Of a DNA stretch of 64,000 bases, positions 45,076-63,754 are shown piece by piece (position 1 is the first letter of the stretch; each line of letters starts with the position of its first letter). The DNA comes from Oscillospiraceae bacterium (GTDB lineage: Bacteria; Bacillota; Clostridia; Oscillospirales; Oscillospiraceae). The stretch lies in the NCBI GenBank assembly GCA_902798545.1, contig CADBWQ010000002.1, forward strand, positions 58,807 through 122,806, in the 5' to 3' direction. Under the pieces are notes generated by a model. The model saw only the letters and a program-made list of their open reading frames with translations, had not been told where the DNA came from and made no database searches. The translations under genes and the position numbers were made by a program.

Positions 45076-45195
45076 AGCTTCTCCTGTAGGTGGCCGTAGG
45101 GTGCTGTCGGCTGGAAAAGGGTTCTGTAAAAACAAAAGACATTTACAACATCTGTTTTACAGCTAAAGAAAGTAGCAATGAGAGGAAGTAAAACC

Positions 45196-47499
45196 ATGAT
45201 AAAGCTCGATTTGCATATTCATTCCTATGCGAGTAAGTACAAAGAGGGCAGAGGAATTGTAGATGCCTCCACGATTGAGAATGTTAACGTTTTGCTTCAA
45301 AAGCTTAATGAGTATGACGTTGCACTGTTTTCTATCACAGATCATAATAGGTTTTGGCCGGAACTATATGAAAAACTTGATGAATTGATTGCTTCAGGGC
45401 AATATCCCCAAGTACATGGGCTTTTAGCTGGCGTAGAATTTGATGTTCAAATTGACCCAGAGATGTCGAAGTGTCACATCATTACTGTCTTTGATGCTCA
45501 GAACAATAAGGAAAACTATCAAAAGATTTATGATGCCATCGAGCAGCACAAGCTGGAAGACAAAGATGCTTACTATTCAAAAAGAGATTATGAGGATTTG
45601 CTCCGAGAAATTGGACTTGATGTAATATTAATTGCCTGCCAAAGGAATAGCCTAGATAGACACAATGGTCACCATAATTCACTTAGTGAAACTACAATGG
45701 AGCCGCAAAAGCTACTGATGGCAGGCTACATTAACGCACTTGAATTCCAGAGGCCTAATGTCGAGGGCATTCTGAGGGACAATCTTAAGAAGGTTCCAGT
45801 ACAGGTAGGACTGATTACGGGGAGCGATTGCCATGAATGGGCGGCCTATCCGAATCATGATGCTAGACGGGGTAATCCGGAGTTTGTTCATCCCAGAGCA
45901 AATATTCTTCCTACCTTCAAAGGGTTATTGATGGCGGTGACTTCTCCAGAAACGAGAATTAATCAGCAAGAAAACAGGAATAGAGAATACGTACAATACA
46001 TTCAGCTCGGTGATAAAACAATTCCGTTGACTAATGGGCTGATAGCTATCATCGGAGAAAACGGCTCTGGAAAATCTTCGTTGTTGAAGATACTCCAGGG
46101 GAAAACATCAGAGTCTTTCGTTAAGAAAATTCGAGATAAGAATTCTATAACCTATTCGGAGACCGATGGTTCCAAGAGACTTTACATAGAGCAAGGCCAA
46201 ATTGTAGACAAATTTGGAAAAGGAAGCCTATTTCCCCCTGACAATTTCTTGCCGGTGGATCATTCAGAGTTTCGGGCCGCGTACACTTCATTTTCAAAAG
46301 GAATACTTGATTGCATAAAGAAAAAGATAAAAACAAGGGAGGCGTATAAACAGCTTGAAGTGGAGTCATTAGAATATAATGAATTAATCCATTCGGCCTC
46401 ATATTATATCAATTTGCTTGTAGACAGTGACTACGCAGAAATCGATAATGTGCATGAGCAATATGACAAGGATCTTCACAATTTGTTGGAAACATTTTTC
46501 CGCATGCGATCCGATAATTATTACGTTAACTTCCAAAATGAGCTGAATCAGATTATTGAATTGTTAGGCAAAATCTATGGGGCAGTTCATGAAGCTTCTG
46601 ATGCAAAAGTGGTTGAGAGGTTGGTTAAGAATCATATTGTTTCAGCCCAGATAGAGTATGATCAAAAAGTCAAAGAAGCGGCAACATCACAACAGTTGGA
46701 TCAACGGGATTATTTGGAAAAAAGAAAAGCATTCATTAGTAAGATTGTTAATGCCGCAAGAAAGAATTCTGAGGATACTCATTTCCCGGATAGCCCAAGA
46801 GTAATTCATGGATGTAGTATAAACCCACGCCATGGATTCAGTTTCAATTCTGAAGCAAAATATAATGATAGAGATGTAATAGACGATTTTCTCGGGAAAA
46901 TGTTTACTTCAGACTATAAAACGTTTGAGGCACTACAGACTATTGAGACATATGATGCGTTAAAAAACGCAATATATCGCTGTACATCAATCGAACAAAT
47001 AGACAGGCAATTCGAGCACAATTTAGATTCTTTCTTGGACGAGATGTGCAAGACTACAGATTATATAGTGGATACTTCCCAGCGCAATGAAACTTTGGGA
47101 AATACTCTTGGAGAACTGTCACTGGCGTATTTTAAATATATGACAGAGCATGAAACAGAGAGATGCATATTTTTGATTGATCAACCGGAAGACCATATTT
47201 CTAATAATAACATAAGCCAAAAGCTTCTTAGATACTTCAATTCAATCAGGACAAAGAAGCAGATCATTATGGTTACACACAACCCACTTTTAGTTGTCAA
47301 TCAGGATGTAGACCAAGTCTTATTTGTTCGGAAAAACGGTGATAAAATAAATGTTGTTTCCGGTTGTCTTGAATATGAAGATGAAGATATTAATATTCTG
47401 GATCTTATTGCAAAGAACATGGATGGCGGAAAAGATTCGATCGAAAAGAGGTTAAAAGTCTATGGAAAAGAAAATCGTCTTGACAATGCAGCCATCTAA
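45196..47499 (+). CDS. PHP-domain/SMC-like ATPase (TrlF-type)
   Basis: ATG 45196 is used because GAGAGGAAG precedes it; ATG 45178 is possible. Residues about 1-255 form a PHP phosphoesterase domain with intact metal ligands: KLDLHIHSYAS (H7, H9), SITDHNRF, LLAGVEFDV, LITGSDCHEW. Residues about 270-767 form an SMC/RecF-like ATPase: Walker A IIGENGSGKSSLL, a coiled-coil insertion, an ABC-signature-like LGELSLAYFKYM, Walker B CIFLIDQPEDHIS and the His switch MVTHNPLL. This architecture matches proteins labelled TrlF family, usually found in defence or accessory islands. A nuclease or phosphatase gated by ATP-driven DNA or RNA sensing is a fair inference. Its 3' end overlaps the next gene by 38 bases. 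Confidence 0.82.
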   Translation: MIKLDLHIHSYASKYKEGRGIVDASTIENVNVLLQKLNEYDVALFSITDHNRFWPELYEKLDELIASGQYPQVHGLLAGVEFDVQIDPEMSKCHIITVFDAQNNKENYQKIYDAIEQHKLEDKDAYYSKRDYEDLLREIGLDVILIACQRNSLDRHNGHHNSLSETTMEPQKLLMAGYINALEFQRPNVEGILRDNLKKVPVQVGLITGSDCHEWAAYPNHDARRGNPEFVHPRANILPTFKGLLMAVTSPETRINQQENRNREYVQYIQLGDKTIPLTNGLIAIIGENGSGKSSLLKILQGKTSESFVKKIRDKNSITYSETDGSKRLYIEQGQIVDKFGKGSLFPPDNFLPVDHSEFRAAYTSFSKGILDCIKKKIKTREAYKQLEVESLEYNELIHSASYYINLLVDSDYAEIDNVHEQYDKDLHNLLETFFRMRSDNYYVNFQNELNQIIELLGKIYGAVHEASDAKVVERLVKNHIVSAQIEYDQKVKEAATSQQLDQRDYLEKRKAFISKIVNAARKNSEDTHFPDSPRVIHGCSINPRHGFSFNSEAKYNDRDVIDDFLGKMFTSDYKTFEALQTIETYDALKNAIYRCTSIEQIDRQFEHNLDSFLDEMCKTTDYIVDTSQRNETLGNTLGELSLAYFKYMTEHETERCIFLIDQPEDHISNNNISQKLLRYFNSIRTKKQIIMVTHNPLLVVNQDVDQVLFVRKNGDKINVVSGCLEYEDEDINILDLIAKNMDGGKDSIEKRLKVYGKENRLDNAAI

Positions 47500-47821
47500 G
47501 GATATTGATATTGTAATAAATGATTACAATCGAATTACCATTGGACAGGCCAGTAGAGCGGTAAAAGCTGACGACATATATAATCTTTTGGGGTACGAAC
47601 GGGGAGATATCTACACTGTAGAGAGCGTAAACGAACAAAATATAGATGTCCCAGTTTTGCAGTTTTTCGTGGAATTGTTTAAAGATATAACTGATCGTTT
47701 GAATCGATTGAGTGAGACGCAGAACGATGACTTAGATGAGAATGCGGAGGGAGAGGAAGAAACCACAGGAAGAGGTACGTATTCATTTGATCAGATGGAT
47801 GATGAGGAACTTCCTTTTTAG
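47462..47821 (+). CDS. Small acidic partner protein with SSB-like C-terminal tip
   Basis: The 119-residue protein overlaps the PHP-ATPase gene by 38 bases, so the two are translated together. It opens with a small beta/alpha region (KKIVLTMQPSKDIDIVINDY), then a helix, and ends in a flexible acidic tail: DDLDENAEGEEETTGRG, then FDQMDDEELPF. The last residues match the C-terminal peptide of SSB, which recruits repair and replication proteins. The SSB of this same genome ends YEELEDDGELPF. No OB fold is visible. It could compete with SSB for partners or dock the ATPase to the SSB interactome. The family is not recognised. Confidence 0.75.
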   Translation: MEKKIVLTMQPSKDIDIVINDYNRITIGQASRAVKADDIYNLLGYERGDIYTVESVNEQNIDVPVLQFFVELFKDITDRLNRLSETQNDDLDENAEGEEETTGRGTYSFDQMDDEELPF

Positions 47822-48153: not shown

Positions 48154-48456
48154 ATGGAAGAGACGCTTATCTACTATCTGGAGCAGCATGGGGAAACTGT
48201 TACGTCAAAAGGCGATTTGATCAAACTCTATGGTCAAGTAAAAAGCCTACGAGGAATGACACAGAGCAGCACTTATGATAAGCGGGTCATTGATTTGCTT
48301 AGCGGACTTGAAAAAATCGTCAATAGCATTGCCAACATGCGAAATCTGAACAGCGATGCTCACGGTGCTGGAAGCGGCAGAATTAACATCAAAGAGAAAG
48401 AGGCCAGACTGGTAATGAATTCCGCGATCAACTATTGCGTGTATATGCTGGGATAG
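48154..48456 (+). pseudogene. Abi C-terminal domain fragment (abortive-infection-like)
   Basis: The 100-residue frame corresponds only to the C-terminal domain of abortive-infection-type proteins (Pfam Abi_C-like): LLSGLEKIVNSIANMRNLNS, DAHGAGSGRINIKEKEARLV. The MRN...DAHG pattern is an Rx6H arrangement as in HEPN-type domains. Full family members have a large N-terminal part that is missing here. It starts 20 bases after a truncated ORF, so it is probably a remnant, though a start codon and AGGA-like site are present. Confidence 0.55.
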
Positions 48457-50456: not shown

Positions 50457-52208
50457 ATGAATATGAATATGAAGGGCGTGAGCTTAATGATTTGGATGGG
50501 TTTTCTAGATAGTATGCCATTGGCTCCTGTTGAAGAAGATATGCTTCGCTTTGCAAATGATAATCTTTTCAGTCTGGTCGAGATGCAGATTGACTTATAT
50601 GAGAGTTTAAAAGATGAATACAATCCGGAGTATCTTTTCCCTACAAGAAAATTTGCCAAAGAACCGGAGAAATGCATCGATACCTTGTATGAATTGCGAG
50701 ATACGATTCAGAGCGACGTTATCTATAACAGTCTTCCGCCATTACAGAAATATGTGCTGTACAATTTGATGGAAATACGCATAGATGAATATAAGCATTA
50801 CGGTGATGACTTCCGCTTTAAATTGCCGGATAGATTAAAAGAAAGAATCCGAGAGGAATATGTTGATATATGTGGATTCGACCAGGAGCCGGATGAAGCA
50901 TACAAGACTGCCATTGAGATTCTAGAGTCGCCTGACGAATATATTCCCAATTGCTTTGAAGATACGGACTTTTTGGAGGAAGATCTTCGCAAATATGTTT
51001 GGCTCGCAATCAACAATAAGGATCTCTTTTTACGCACGATGAGCTATGAAGAACTGGATGGGCTTATAGAGGTAATGCCTGGGGATATCGCCAGACAGTA
51101 TACAGAATTCAGAAAAAAGCAGGCGGTAATTGGGCAGGCTCTGAAAAAAGAAGATTCTTCAAGACCAACCGTTTTCCTCTCATATAATCATAAAAGCGAT
51201 ATTGTTGACGAATTAGAAAGCAGACTATCTGAAATCGCAGATGTTCGCAGAGACAAGAATAGCTTAGGCTACTGGGACAATCTTACTGCTTTTATGAATT
51301 CGATTCGTAAGGCTGACTTCGCAGTGCTGGTAATCTCTGACTGGTACCTGAAATCTGTACCATGCATGTATGAGGTCATGCAGCTTATGAAAGATGAGGG
51401 TTGGAACCAGCGCGTTATGTATATAGTTGAAGACAATGCGAGAGGAATATATAAGGTACAGGAACAGCTGGATTATATTAAGTATTGGAAAGAGAAGGAA
51501 GAAAAGCTTGCTGAAGAACTCAAAGCGCTTGATCCAGCGGAAACCATGTATCAGGCAGAGGAATTAAGAAAAATTCGGCTGATCAAGCTTCATATTGGGG
51601 AGTTAATCGAAAAAGTCTGCACGGTTAATAATCCAGATGCGAAAGATGCAATAGCAGCTGTAGTTAACAGAGTTTTACCATCTTCCACGGGGAATACAAC
51701 CGATCCAAAAACTAATAATGATGATAATGAAGAGAATAAGAAACAGGCATCGAGACATGAATACAACAGGATATTTGCTATTCGAAAACTGACAGAAGAC
51801 GAGTTCCGGAAAGAAGAAGAGAGACAACTTGAGAATTATATCTTCGATCCTGAAGACCCATTATGTGGCTCATGGGAAGATATAGTAAGCCAACGCTGCC
51901 ACATGGAGATTTACAGGCATGATGGGAAATACTTTATAAGAATACAGTGGGCTTCATCAGCTTGGGAATACCATGAATGGTCAATGTCCGGTGAATGGAA
52001 TGAAAAGATGCAGGCGATTTGCTGTACTGATGAGTGCAGCAGAATGATAACAGGTCTGGAGCGCGGAAATACAGGGAAACTGGAAATTACGACTCTTTAT
52101 AACAATGGTATCAGTAAGCTGTTTTTTCACAAACGAGAATGCCACTGGCTTGACGCGAGTGACACGACGGGCTATCGCTGTAGATTTGTTAAAATGAACA
52201 ATAAATAG
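50457..52208 (+). CDS. TIR-domain protein with novel flanking domains
   Basis: The 583-residue protein (ATG 50457; ATG 50487 also possible) has three parts. Residues about 1-225 are helical and unrecognised. Residues about 232-345 are a TIR domain: RPTVFLSYNHKSDIVDELES, DVRRDKNSLGYWDNL, AVLVISDWYLKSVPCMYEVM with the likely catalytic Glu306. A charged linker is followed by a beta-rich C-terminal domain (about 455-580) rich in Trp (GSWEDIVSQRCHMEIYRHDG, SAWEYHEWSMSGEW). Bacterial TIR proteins commonly cleave NAD+ or make cyclic ADP-ribose signals in antiphage defence. The C-terminal domain could be a ligand-binding sensor. It stands alone with its own promoter. Confidence 0.78.
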   Translation: MNMNMKGVSLMIWMGFLDSMPLAPVEEDMLRFANDNLFSLVEMQIDLYESLKDEYNPEYLFPTRKFAKEPEKCIDTLYELRDTIQSDVIYNSLPPLQKYVLYNLMEIRIDEYKHYGDDFRFKLPDRLKERIREEYVDICGFDQEPDEAYKTAIEILESPDEYIPNCFEDTDFLEEDLRKYVWLAINNKDLFLRTMSYEELDGLIEVMPGDIARQYTEFRKKQAVIGQALKKEDSSRPTVFLSYNHKSDIVDELESRLSEIADVRRDKNSLGYWDNLTAFMNSIRKADFAVLVISDWYLKSVPCMYEVMQLMKDEGWNQRVMYIVEDNARGIYKVQEQLDYIKYWKEKEEKLAEELKALDPAETMYQAEELRKIRLIKLHIGELIEKVCTVNNPDAKDAIAAVVNRVLPSSTGNTTDPKTNNDDNEENKKQASRHEYNRIFAIRKLTEDEFRKEEERQLENYIFDPEDPLCGSWEDIVSQRCHMEIYRHDGKYFIRIQWASSAWEYHEWSMSGEWNEKMQAICCTDECSRMITGLERGNTGKLEITTLYNNGISKLFFHKRECHWLDASDTTGYRCRFVKMNNK

Positions 52209-53529: not shown

Positions 53530-53548
53530 AAGCGCATGATAAATAATG

Positions 53549-53563
53549 GTTAGGATTCCTAAC
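53549..53563. promoter_or_regulatory. 15-bp palindrome, likely XRE operator
   Basis: GTTAGGA-T-TCCTAAC is a perfect palindrome around one central base, ten bases before the -35 box of the XRE gene. Autoregulation by the encoded repressor is likely. Confidence 0.6.
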
Positions 53564-53572
53564 AAAAAGATG

Positions 53573-53601
53573 TTGCAATTTCTGACTCAATGGCGTATAA
53601 T
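53573..53601 (+). promoter_or_regulatory. Promoter of the XRE-ImmA/Fic operon
   Basis: TTGCAA (53573-53578) and TATAAT (53596-53601) have a 17-base spacer, 26 bases before the XRE start. Confidence 0.7.
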
Positions 53602-53626
53602 ATCAGAGCTGGCAAAGGAGGAAGCC

Positions 53627-53944
53627 ATGAAAATCAATGAAAAAATGAAGGAGCTAAGAATGCAACTACATCTTTCCCAGGATTATGTTGCGAAGTATCT
53701 GGGAGTGAATCGCTCTACAGTTACGCAGATGGAAAATGGGAATCGGAAGATTCTTGCAGAAGAGGTATCGAAGCTTTGCACGCTCTTTGGCGTGTCTGCT
53801 GACACATTGATTTACGACACTGAACTGAGCCAGCCAGCAAATGTGTTCGCAAGGAGCTTTGATAATCTTGATGATACGGACAAGGCTGAAATTATGAACC
53901 TGATTCGGTTCAAAGAACAGATGAAGGCGCAGAGGAGTAAGTAA
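53627..53944 (+). CDS. XRE-family transcriptional regulator
   Basis: ATG 53627 lies six bases after AAAGGAGG; the longer frame runs through the promoter. The 105-residue protein has an N-terminal Cro/CI-type helix-turn-helix (LRMQLHLSQDYVAKYLGVNR, STVTQMENGNRKI) and a short C-terminal helical region. Its stop overlaps the next start as TAATG, so it is co-translated with the ImmA/IrrE-Fic protein, as is usual for XRE-ImmA pairs in which the protease may cleave the repressor. Confidence 0.88.
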   Translation: MKINEKMKELRMQLHLSQDYVAKYLGVNRSTVTQMENGNRKILAEEVSKLCTLFGVSADTLIYDTELSQPANVFARSFDNLDDTDKAEIMNLIRFKEQMKAQRSK

Positions 53945-55311
53945 TGCAGTTTCAAGCAGAGGCAAAGTGTATCGATGATCCTGAGCAGTTGGCGGCGATA
54001 TATCTCTCCAAATACTTTGGAAATCAGAGGATAGAATACCCGATAAATCCTTTTCAGATGCTGAAGGATGAGGGCGTTCTTTTCTCGCTGATGGACTTCA
54101 AAAAGCTGGAAGGTGTTTATATCCCGGCATCTGGAGACGATGATATTCCAATCGTCGGTATCAACGCTAATCGTCCGATTACACGCCAAAGGTTTACTGC
54201 TGCACATGAACTCTGTCATCATTTCCGCGATGCCGATAAGGAAATATCCTGCCCAATCTCGGGTAAGAAGAATGCTATCGAATCTTATGCTGAACGGTTT
54301 GCCGCTGCGTTGCTAATGCCCATAAATGAGCTACGTAACCAGGTGCGGAGAAGACAGAAAAATGGCCGACGGTATATTACATATGATGACGTACTGGAAA
54401 TAGCTGACTATTTCGGAGTAAGCTTTGAGGCATGTCTGTTTCGAATCGCCTATCGGGTACATGCAATTGACGGGAACACAGAATCGACGGCGTTAAGGAA
54501 ACGAGCAGCAAAATATCAGCCCGAGAAAGAGCGAAAGAAACGTCATTTTTCATACGCGAAGCTGTATGTGGGGCTGATTGACTGTTATCGAGAACAGCTT
54601 TCTTTTGAGCCGTCAGACTTTGCAAGGAATTTATTCCAGACAAATTACATCTACAATGACAGCAGAATGGAAGGTCTTGATGTAACAATCGAACAGGCTG
54701 CGGAGATTGTTACTGACCTCAGGCTGAACATGCAGAACAGTGAGTATTGCACAGAGGAAAATGAAGTATATATGTCTATTGCGGGGCATCACGATATGTA
54801 TCAGGATATATTTGCGGTACCCGTGAAAGATTCGCTTAGCGTATATGATATGTTTCCGCTGAATAAGAAGCTGTTTTCACACTACCCTTATCCCGACTAT
54901 GGTGGAAGTACCAGGCAGAACAATACGTTGGTAATCGGAGCAAAATTTGAGACCGTTGATTATAATGATATTTTCACGGAACTTTCAAAGATCGATGCAG
55001 AAATAAGGGATTTCTACAATCGTCGGACTGAGATGCCGATGAGTGAGTACATAAAGCATGTAGCACGTATTCACCATTGGATAACAGTTGTTCATCCTTT
55101 CCCGGAAGGAAATGGACGAACCTCCAGAGCTTTTATGAATGTCCAGCTTGTCCGTGCGGGAATGGTACCAATATATATCAAAGTTGAGGATAAACGCGAG
55201 TATATTAAAGCACTGGAACGAGCTGACAAAGAGAAGGACTACGAAGAATTATATGAAATTGTTTTTAAACTGATTCTTCGCTCCTATATAGATTTGAATA
55301 AAAGCATTTGA
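53944..55311 (+). CDS. ImmA/IrrE metallopeptidase fused to a Fic domain
   Basis: The 455-residue protein has two catalytic halves. Residues about 30-165 form an ImmA/IrrE (COG2856) peptidase with zinc motif His88-Glu89-Leu-Cys-His92 in FTAAHELCHHFRD. Residues about 225-440 form a Fic domain with motif HPFPEGNGR (384-392) and an inhibitory-helix-like segment, IYNDSRMEGLDVTIEQ. Fic domains transfer AMP or another phosphate-containing group to proteins; ImmA-type enzymes cleave their paired XRE repressor on stress. One polypeptide would thus sense stress, relieve repression and modify a target. Both active sites look intact. It lies in an operon with the XRE gene. Confidence 0.88.
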   Translation: MQFQAEAKCIDDPEQLAAIYLSKYFGNQRIEYPINPFQMLKDEGVLFSLMDFKKLEGVYIPASGDDDIPIVGINANRPITRQRFTAAHELCHHFRDADKEISCPISGKKNAIESYAERFAAALLMPINELRNQVRRRQKNGRRYITYDDVLEIADYFGVSFEACLFRIAYRVHAIDGNTESTALRKRAAKYQPEKERKKRHFSYAKLYVGLIDCYREQLSFEPSDFARNLFQTNYIYNDSRMEGLDVTIEQAAEIVTDLRLNMQNSEYCTEENEVYMSIAGHHDMYQDIFAVPVKDSLSVYDMFPLNKKLFSHYPYPDYGGSTRQNNTLVIGAKFETVDYNDIFTELSKIDAEIRDFYNRRTEMPMSEYIKHVARIHHWITVVHPFPEGNGRTSRAFMNVQLVRAGMVPIYIKVEDKREYIKALERADKEKDYEELYEIVFKLILRSYIDLNKSI

Positions 55312-63277: not shown

Positions 63278-63754
63278 TCAGAACGGCAGCTCGCCGTCAT
63301 CCTCCAGCTCCTCATAGGGGCTGGGAGCGACCTGCGGAACCGGCGTGTTCTGAGGGGCGGAGCTGAAGCCGCCGAAATTGCCGGACTGACCGCCGTAGCT
63401 GCTCTGGGAGTAGCCGCCGGCGTCAGAGTCGCGCTTGCTGTCACCAAAGTAGACGTTGTCAGCGCTGACTTCCCAACTGGTGCGGTTGTTGCCCTCGCGG
63501 TCCTGCCACTTGCGCGACTGGAGCCGTCCGGAGACAACAATCATGCGGCCCTTCTGGAAATACTTGCTGACGAATTCACCGGTCTGCCGCCATGCGACAC
63601 AGTCGATGAAATCCGTCTGGCGCTCTCCGCCGTCACGGCCGCCAAAGTCGCGGTCGACCGCAACCGTGAAGGAAGCCACGGGAACCTGAGACTGCGTATA
63701 ACGGAGCTCGGGATCTTTGACAAGGCGTCCCATCAGGACGATGTGGTTTAGCAT
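63278..63754 (-). CDS. ssb: Single-stranded DNA-binding protein
   Basis: The 158-residue protein has the OB fold (MLNHIVLMGRLVKDPELRYT, FIDCVAWRQTGEFVSKYFQK, GRLQSRKWQDREGNNRTSWE), a Gly/Ser/Gln-rich linker (about 110-145) and the acidic tip EELEDDGELPF that recruits partner proteins. It lies between rpsF and rpsR as in most Firmicutes. The tip is the reference for the similar end of the small protein at 47462. Confidence 0.97.
   Translation of the reverse strand: MLNHIVLMGRLVKDPELRYTQSQVPVASFTVAVDRDFGGRDGGERQTDFIDCVAWRQTGEFVSKYFQKGRMIVVSGRLQSRKWQDREGNNRTSWEVSADNVYFGDSKRDSDAGGYSQSSYGGQSGNFGGFSSAPQNTPVPQVAPSPYEELEDDGELPF

Follow-up and report, generated by a model that had tools for sequence, protein, structure and literature searches.

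A PHP-SMC-like ATPase with a conserved overlapping partner gene: a putative two-gene relative of Ppl and TrlF, some of whose partners end in an SSB-like tip

The 64,000-nucleotide stretch of Oscillospiraceae DNA analysed here (contig CADBWQ010000002.1; the whole stretch is referred to as the window) harbors an ATPase gene whose 3' end is overlapped by a small gene, and a homologous small gene accompanies the ATPase gene at each of the 50 loci compared. The product of the small gene, termed the partner below, ends in a sequence that resembles the C-terminal tip of the single-stranded DNA-binding protein (SSB), as do the partners at six further loci. We propose, and on balance consider probable, that the pair constitutes a coupled two-gene relative of Ppl and TrlF in which the tip of the partner would dock to SSB-binding repair factors. 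The features of the pair are as follows.

45180 to 45188, forward strand: probable ribosome-binding site of the ATPase gene, GAGAGGAAG, read by eye
45196 to 47499, forward strand: PHP-SMC/Rad50-like ATPase of 767 residues, from below-cut-off TrlF, Spaf_1101 and Ppl matches and SMC/Rad50 structure matches
45196 to 45975, forward strand: PHP-type domain, about residues 1-260, with C148 for the usual His, assigned from the TrlF model match (residues 3-316), motifs and Foldseek; limits approximate
46054 to 46077, forward strand: Walker A motif GENGSGKS, residues 287-294, from sequence
46264 to 46770, forward strand: helical insert splitting the ATPase halves, about residues 357-525, from the secondary structure of the model
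47101 to 47130, forward strand: ABC signature-like run NTLGELSLAY, residues 636-645, from sequence
47170 to 47193, forward strand: Walker B motif FLIDQPED, residues 659-666, from sequence
47448 to 47451, forward strand: probable ribosome-binding site of the partner gene, GAGG, within the ATPase gene and 10 nucleotides 5' of the ATG, read by eye
47462 to 47821, forward strand: partner gene, 119 residues, overlapping the ATPase gene by 38 nucleotides; an open reading frame (ORF) with a homologous gene at 50 of 50 loci
47462 to 47737, forward strand: predicted folded non-OB domain of the partner (strands at residues 2-9, 15-19, 23-27 and 50-56, helices at 36-43 and 63-92), from the AlphaFold2 model
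47738 to 47791, forward strand: acidic linker of the partner, residues 93-110, probably disordered, from low predicted local distance difference test (pLDDT) values, in blocks of 51 and 61
47792 to 47818, forward strand: SSB-like C-terminal tip of the partner, QMDDEELPF, residues 111-119, from sequence

The first-pass annotation of this DNA had staked its reading on a conserved linkage of the two genes, and the linkage holds: each of the 50 ATPase genes is followed by a small ORF that starts inside or beside its 3' end, and every one of the 50 products is recognized at E <= 0.01 by one of two partner profiles (that of locus L038 most weakly, at 0.0033), the profiles having been built from 33 of the 50 partners on which they were scored. 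At the genome-contig loci, the partner starts at offsets of -7 to -61 nucleotides from the ATPase 3' end, mostly -16 or -22; the listed partner ORFs of L093 and L094 begin further upstream, with homology beginning near the ATPase stop. Searched against 3,188 ORFs, the profile of clade A of the ATPase tree described below (16 sequences) gave matches at E <= 0.01 to partner ORFs and to no others; those of L093 and L094, which lay outside its building set, were among them. The clade A and clade B profiles align with an hhalign probability of 95. As a control, 10 plasmid TrlF loci (among which L105 and L106 hold nearly the same stretch) were inspected, and the homologous small gene was found in none; short ORFs near the ATPase end in L112, L113 and L114, and a 385-residue one in L111, do not match the partner profiles. 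Because the partner is homologous at all 50 loci, is absent from these plasmid TrlF loci and is unmatched beside more distant ATPases, the pair is, by sequence comparison, a separate family beside TrlF and Ppl, and the small protein is very likely a dedicated subunit with which the ATPase would form a complex.

An SSB-tip motif, taken as an acidic run followed by [IL]PF at the very C-terminus, is present in the window partner, which was found to be, as first read, an overlapping product of 119 residues ending in MDDEELPF. Seven of the 50 partners end in PF, and all seven carry an acidic run ahead of it, the other six being those of L024 (EDDAIPF), L026 (SDWGDIPF), L037 (YSEDIPF), L087 (GDDEIPF), L093 (ADEDIPF) and L094 (DEEDIPF). 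These six are all from Coriobacteriia, with L024, L026 and L037 belonging to Atopobiaceae or Atopobium and L087, L093 and L094 stemming from genomes of the class that includes Parafannyhessea genome G597; such recurrence argues for a function of the tip. An [ILVM]PF end is borne by 21 of 1,524 distinct ORFs with 80 or more residues: the 7 partners, together with 12 SSBs and two further ORFs. Under a strict acidic filter 19 of these remain, comprising all 7 partners, 11 of the SSBs and a single other ORF, which is adjacent to an SSB-like gene. Since the underlying loci had been fetched for partners and SSBs, both are enriched in this set, whose informative part is the low background. Across the 3.0-Mb genome of the window, the pattern D/E-D/E-x-[ILVMF]-P-F-stop, which is too narrow to catch SSB ends, occurs at two places, the partner and one on contig C25, and at none in a reversed control; the second place (G000:C25:10031-10051) would read EEQFPF-stop, as a pattern match only. 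The SSB-like tip that was first noted on the small partner thus recurs in six others, but it is not the defining feature of the system, having been rejected as such on account of the 43 of 50 partners that lack it. Relatives lacking the tip had been named at the outset as a result that would refute the reading; as found here, they reduce the tip to an option and do not do away with it. Judged from these sequences, it looks like an optional module on a core that functions in its absence.

The ATPase tree comprises 47 rows, 21 in clade A and 26 in clade B, and all seven tips lie in clade A, with none in clade B. Within it, the window is sister to the tipless L016, L017 and L033 (support 100/99), and the six other tips fall in a seven-row clade together with the tipless L032 (support 100/99), such that the tip requires a minimum of three changes on the tree, two of which are forced by well-supported branches. 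That the tip marks a single clade was rejected by constrained-clade tests, both for the seven tipped rows (p = 3.5e-5) and for these rows plus L032 (p = 0.003, for a group picked after the tree had been viewed). Retention of the tip is apparent in two pairs of closely related partners. The domains of L037 and L087 are identical at 72 of 82 positions and their gapped linkers at only 8 of 25; for L093 and L094, the corresponding values are 53 of 82 and, again with gaps, 4 of 18. I-P-F is the same within each pair, with one synonymous change in the former and two in the latter, and the run ahead of it remains acidic in both.

The resident SSB of the window provides a direct comparison.

63278 to 63754, reverse strand: resident SSB, ending in EELEDDGELPF, for comparison with the partner tip

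A second SSB in the same genome ends in EELDDDGELPF, and a third SSB-type protein lacks the tip; the resemblance initially remarked upon between the ends of the partner and the resident SSB is, therefore, evident against two resident proteins (QMDDEELPF versus DDGELPF). The SSBs of the six other genomes with tipped partners end in DIPF, so that the I or L of the partner tip equals that of the resident SSB in seven of seven genomes, representing two lineages only. Because I-P-F outlasts the drift of the linker and the I or L agrees with the resident SSB in every case, the tip has the appearance of a selected SSB-tip mimic, and it quite probably works as one.

All seven tipped partners occur alongside a host SSB that ends in [IL]PF, as do the tipless partners of 6 of the 10 genomes examined (L016, L017, L030, L032, L051 and L095). 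The SSBs in the genome of L034 end in LPFN and LPFK, and no [IL]PF-ended SSB was found in the genomes of L019, L020 and L028. A host SSB without a tip was accordingly rejected as a general reason for tipless partners, given that 6 of these 10 genomes do have an [IL]PF SSB. A further tip-like end was observed in the genome of the window, at L064 (contig C6 near 107385), where a 211-residue ORF at 1872-2507 ends in EDEGELPF directly after a tipless SSB-like gene; this ORF has no Pfam match at E <= 0.01, and the tip may here sit on the neighbour of an SSB.

The ATPase possesses the sequence motifs expected of its class, as had been claimed from the initial inspection: Walker A, the signature-like run and Walker B are all intact. 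A switch His is read in VTHNP as well. These, together with the head fold, give the window protein the full set of features by which an SMC/Rad50-like ATPase was recognized. An alternative start at 45178, yielding a longer protein, is possible, but the ribosome-site-like run GAGAGGAAG sits just 5' of 45196; like the one ahead of the partner gene, it is purine-rich. The AlphaFold2 model, computed from 24 sequences with a mean pLDDT of 87.7, has an N-terminal alpha/beta domain, which is taken as the PHP domain, followed by an ATPase divided by a long helical insert. Foldseek returned SMC, cohesin, condensin, Rad50, RecN and Wadjet JetABC chains among the best 50 of 80 matches (E <= 0.001), with a best E value of 6e-8 and low whole-chain TM-scores (0.12-0.21 by query length), as well as PolIII alpha (4iqj) over 233-239 columns, a match that presumably falls on the PHP part of PolIII alpha. 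In a profile search against the PDB, AriA (the best match) and Rad50 were nearest, and in Pfam, AAA_21 and ABC_tran scored above cut-off.

The PHP assignment is based on the match to the TrlF model together with sequence motifs and fold. Seven positions that we take to be the metal ligands of PHP enzymes are kept in the window protein (H7, H9, H50, E81, H94, D211 and H213). The PHP active site, which had been described as intact, is therefore so at these seven residues but not at position 148, where the His of 'ILIAHQ', present in 20 of 24 aligned ATPases, is replaced by Cys in the window and by Ser in L016, L017 and L033, the three nearest relatives. Cys is able to bind metal and Ser does so less well, for which reason catalysis by the PHP domain of the window protein, as judged from its residues, is likely but not assured. 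Other variants were observed elsewhere in the family: L095, L096 and L097 have Tyr at this His (LVAYQ for LIAHQ) and retain the small partner gene, and L096 reads GIDCH instead of GSDCH, with the D and H retained.

The partner was modelled with AlphaFold2 from 19 sequences, at a mean pLDDT of 84.2. Across residues 2-92, the model opens with three strands, which are followed by one helix, a further strand and a long helix; the tail beyond is of lower confidence. A compact domain other than an OB fold, with a flexible tail, is thus predicted. The initial statement that no OB fold is seen stands: the window partner matches no SSB or OB-fold model in Pfam or NCBIfam, and the modelled order of elements is not that of an OB fold. 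Foldseek gave no match at E <= 0.001 in the PDB or BFVD, a profile search against the PDB found nothing below an E value of 0.28, and 34 partners searched against Pfam, NCBIfam and PHROGs yielded single weak matches only and no convincing named family.

Relatives of the ATPase were drawn from the phylum (12 of 398 genomes, E <= 1e-10), from one genome-contig scan (44 loci), from the class of Parafannyhessea genome G597 (17 of 396, E <= 1e-60) and its family (8 of 140), and from the class of the window (2 of 391). Plasmid and phage records contained no match to the partner and phage records none to the ATPase; no plasmid match covered 80% of the ATPase, whether among 42 records at E <= 1e-5 or among 426 at E <= 0.1. 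Viral contigs scanned with single proteins yielded no match, and alignment-based scans of such contigs gave family members and distant kin. The 50 loci include L033, in which the ORF begins inside the PHP domain, as well as four loci with identical partners, L020-L023, of which L021-L023 are not in the tree. Excluded from them were L018, L027, L046 and L048 (ATPase ORF broken or partial, each with a tipless partner); L061/L120 (one contig, with a split ATPase and a tipless partner); L047, L052, L053, L057 and L060 (truncated or disrupted, without a visible partner); L059 (a weak match); L001-L004, L085, L086, L088, L089, L102 and L103 (repeats of counted places); and L005-L015 and L121-L126 (distant). 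Among the distant kin, the PHP-ATPases L124, L125 and L126 of the viral collection are overlapped by a 93-residue ORF without an SSB-like tip, and the TrlF-like L007 and L111 are overlapped by a next gene of 394 and 385 residues, respectively (L007 1791-2975; L111 4525-5682), with similar N-termini. The L111 product is annotated as RNA-binding domain-containing and, with that of L007, represents another recurrent partner.

The pair lies directly after rmlC and is followed by an Abi_C ORF, a TIR gene, an HTH gene, an ImmA/IrrE-Fic gene and an AAA_14/DUF4143 gene, in keeping with the defence-like surroundings ascribed to it at the outset. The Abi_C ORF (48154-48456; abortive infection C-terminus) encodes 100 residues and is possibly the remnant of a longer gene; the TIR domain is central in a 583-residue protein (50457-52208) of the same island as the pair; and an ImmA/IrrE-type peptidase domain is fused to a Fic domain at 53944-55311, with the overlapping HTH gene ahead (53546-53944). 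A scan of 86 of the 108 ORFs at the loci of 14 relatives, run with no background set, gave among the families listed N6_N4 methylases (4 of 86 ORFs), resolvases (3), Mob_Pre (3), ResIII (3) and single restriction enzymes of the DpnII, ApaLI and TdeIII types. As these counts stand without a background set, the neighbours only hint at defence and mobility; taken with the kinship to Ppl and TrlF, they suggest an anti-phage or anti-mobile-element role, which we regard as fairly probable.

Our model of the system is one of translational coupling between two genes related to, yet distinct from, those of the Ppl/TrlF PHP-ATPases. The large protein would be a metal-dependent PHP phosphoesterase gated by a Rad50/SMC-like ATPase and, by analogy with Ppl, would probably act on DNA ends or single-stranded DNA, while the small protein, made in step with the ATPase through the gene overlap, would serve as its regulator or adaptor. 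In the genome of the window and in the Coriobacteriia lineage, this adaptor would bear a flexible linker with a terminal look-alike of the SSB C-terminal tip. Proteins with SSB-tip pockets include those of the RecO, PriA, RecQ and RecJ/ExoI types, and a tip fitting the pockets of such host repair and replication proteins would place the ATPase at SSB-coated single-stranded DNA. The first-pass annotation had raised docking at RecQ, RecO, PriA or RecJ and, as an alternative, the sensing of phage interference with SSB; both are conjectures. If this is true of the docking, an SSB-like tip on the own subunit of a defence-type enzyme would link such systems directly to the SSB hub and would suggest a new way of steering a defence-like enzyme to exposed DNA, with tipped and tipless partners offering a natural comparison. 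A bolder version, to which we would give somewhat less than an even chance, holds that the dedicated subunit of a PHP-SMC defence enzyme gained a look-alike of the host SSB tail at least twice, tuned to the host tip, and that the enzyme is thereby delivered to repair sites where SSB is bound, or is switched by SSB tails that are free, in a form of immune mimicry of the single-stranded DNA hub.

The same observations may be read in other ways. The tip could act as an internal switch, binding an SSB-tip-like pocket on the ATPase or PHP domain and keeping the enzyme off until SSB tips crowded on single-stranded DNA displace it, in which case it would read SSB rather than dock to repair enzymes. 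An ever-present, overlapping partner and a tip of the same kind as the resident SSB end would suit such a switch, as would the response of several defence systems to phage SSB or SSB-single-stranded DNA reported in two sources, where the detection route is stated to be unknown for some (PMC10732053, PMC12904381); no pocket was identified, however, and tipless members would need a different switch. We regard this reading as unlikely and favour docking over it. A toxin-antitoxin arrangement, in which the small protein inhibits an ATPase-nuclease and the tip tunes its release, would be compatible with the proposed docking and is conceivable if doubtful. The second gene is indeed small, acidic and overlapping, its product has a folded domain with a tail, and the best profile match, AriA, is a Rad50-like ATPase that carries the PDB label 'antitoxin'; yet that match spans the ATPase core only, the enzyme gene comes first in the operon, and toxicity is purely conjectural.

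It is improbable, in our estimation, that the tip is a plain acidic tail without specific partners, serving solubility or DNA mimicry or arising by chance, with a coincidental PF end. Many tipless partners are likewise acidic-tailed (mean net charge over the last 20 residues of -3.3 in the 43 tipless and -5.3 in the 7 tipped), but an acidic run precedes PF in all seven PF-ended partners, only 2 of the 1,524 ORFs end in [ILVM]PF outside the partners and SSBs, and the PF end survives linker turnover in two pairs. A housekeeping DNA-repair module of the RecF/Rad50 kind, recruited to gaps by its tip as other SSB-interacting factors are, would account for the structural kinship to SMC, Rad50 and RecN heads; it appears decidedly unlikely in view of the patchy spread (itself alone in 400 genomes of the family of the window; 17 of 396 genomes in the class to which the Parafannyhessea genome belongs), the restriction-modification and mobile genes among the neighbours and the relatives on viral-collection contigs.

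Several points weigh against the proposed docking of a defence-type PHP enzyme by its partner. The tip is missing from the three nearest relatives of the window, which are among the 43 tipless partners. Its tree history is tempered by the unsure places of L032, L024, L019 and L020, which are long rows; the independent origins may number only two, and one early gain followed by several losses is possible. The evidence for retention consists of two pairs and three synonymous changes, and the I/L agreement may follow the SSB convention of each lineage. As to the enzyme, the Pfam PHP model is absent among the 11 families that match the ATPase at E <= 1, and Cys-148 (Ser in the nearest kin) could denote a weakened PHP site. 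The small ORFs (78 and 93 residues) beside the distant ATPases L005 and L124-L126 have no partner-profile match (E 0.15 to 39), only the window gene itself was found in its family (400 genomes at E <= 1e-100; 200 genomes at E <= 1e-20), and restriction-modification neighbours are few.

The first-pass annotation knew of no described system with this pairing, and the literature searched (preprints and most subscription papers lie outside its coverage) likewise contains, among the matches listed, no description of the pair and none of a defence subunit with an SSB-tip look-alike. AriA of PARIS, Rad50 and SMC heads belong to the same ATPase head family as the window protein; to our knowledge, these have neither a PHP domain nor an SSB-like tip. 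With SSB (PF00436), the partner shares a flexible tail with an acidic [IL]PF tip but differs in its modelled fold and in having no SSB or OB match in Pfam. The TrlF family (NF045780) provides the best NCBIfam match of the ATPase, at 145.3 bits, with the best stretch across residues 3-316 (the PHP and Walker A region), although this lies under the cut-off of 350, and the TrlF proteins of the 10 plasmid loci are longer (873 to 1024 residues versus 767) and lack the homologous partner. Spaf_1101 (NF045781) matches across residues 32-757, at 65.8 bits against a cut-off of 475. Ppl (NCBIfam NF042955), an anti-phage protein, combines a PHP domain with an SMC-like ATPase, as the window protein appears to do, and all 24 aligned family members match its model at E <= 1e-5, but the window protein scores 38.4 bits against a cut-off of 1000, with a best stretch of just residues 659-753. 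A review describes Ppl as a single gene, in contrast to the small gene found here at the 3' end of the ATPase gene, and as a 3'-5' exonuclease of single-stranded DNA that requires 3'-OH ends and in which NTPs keep the PHP and NTPase domains inactive (PMC12904381). The window ATPase is thus, as far as its profile matches indicate, kin to TrlF, Spaf_1101 and Ppl but a member of none of these families.

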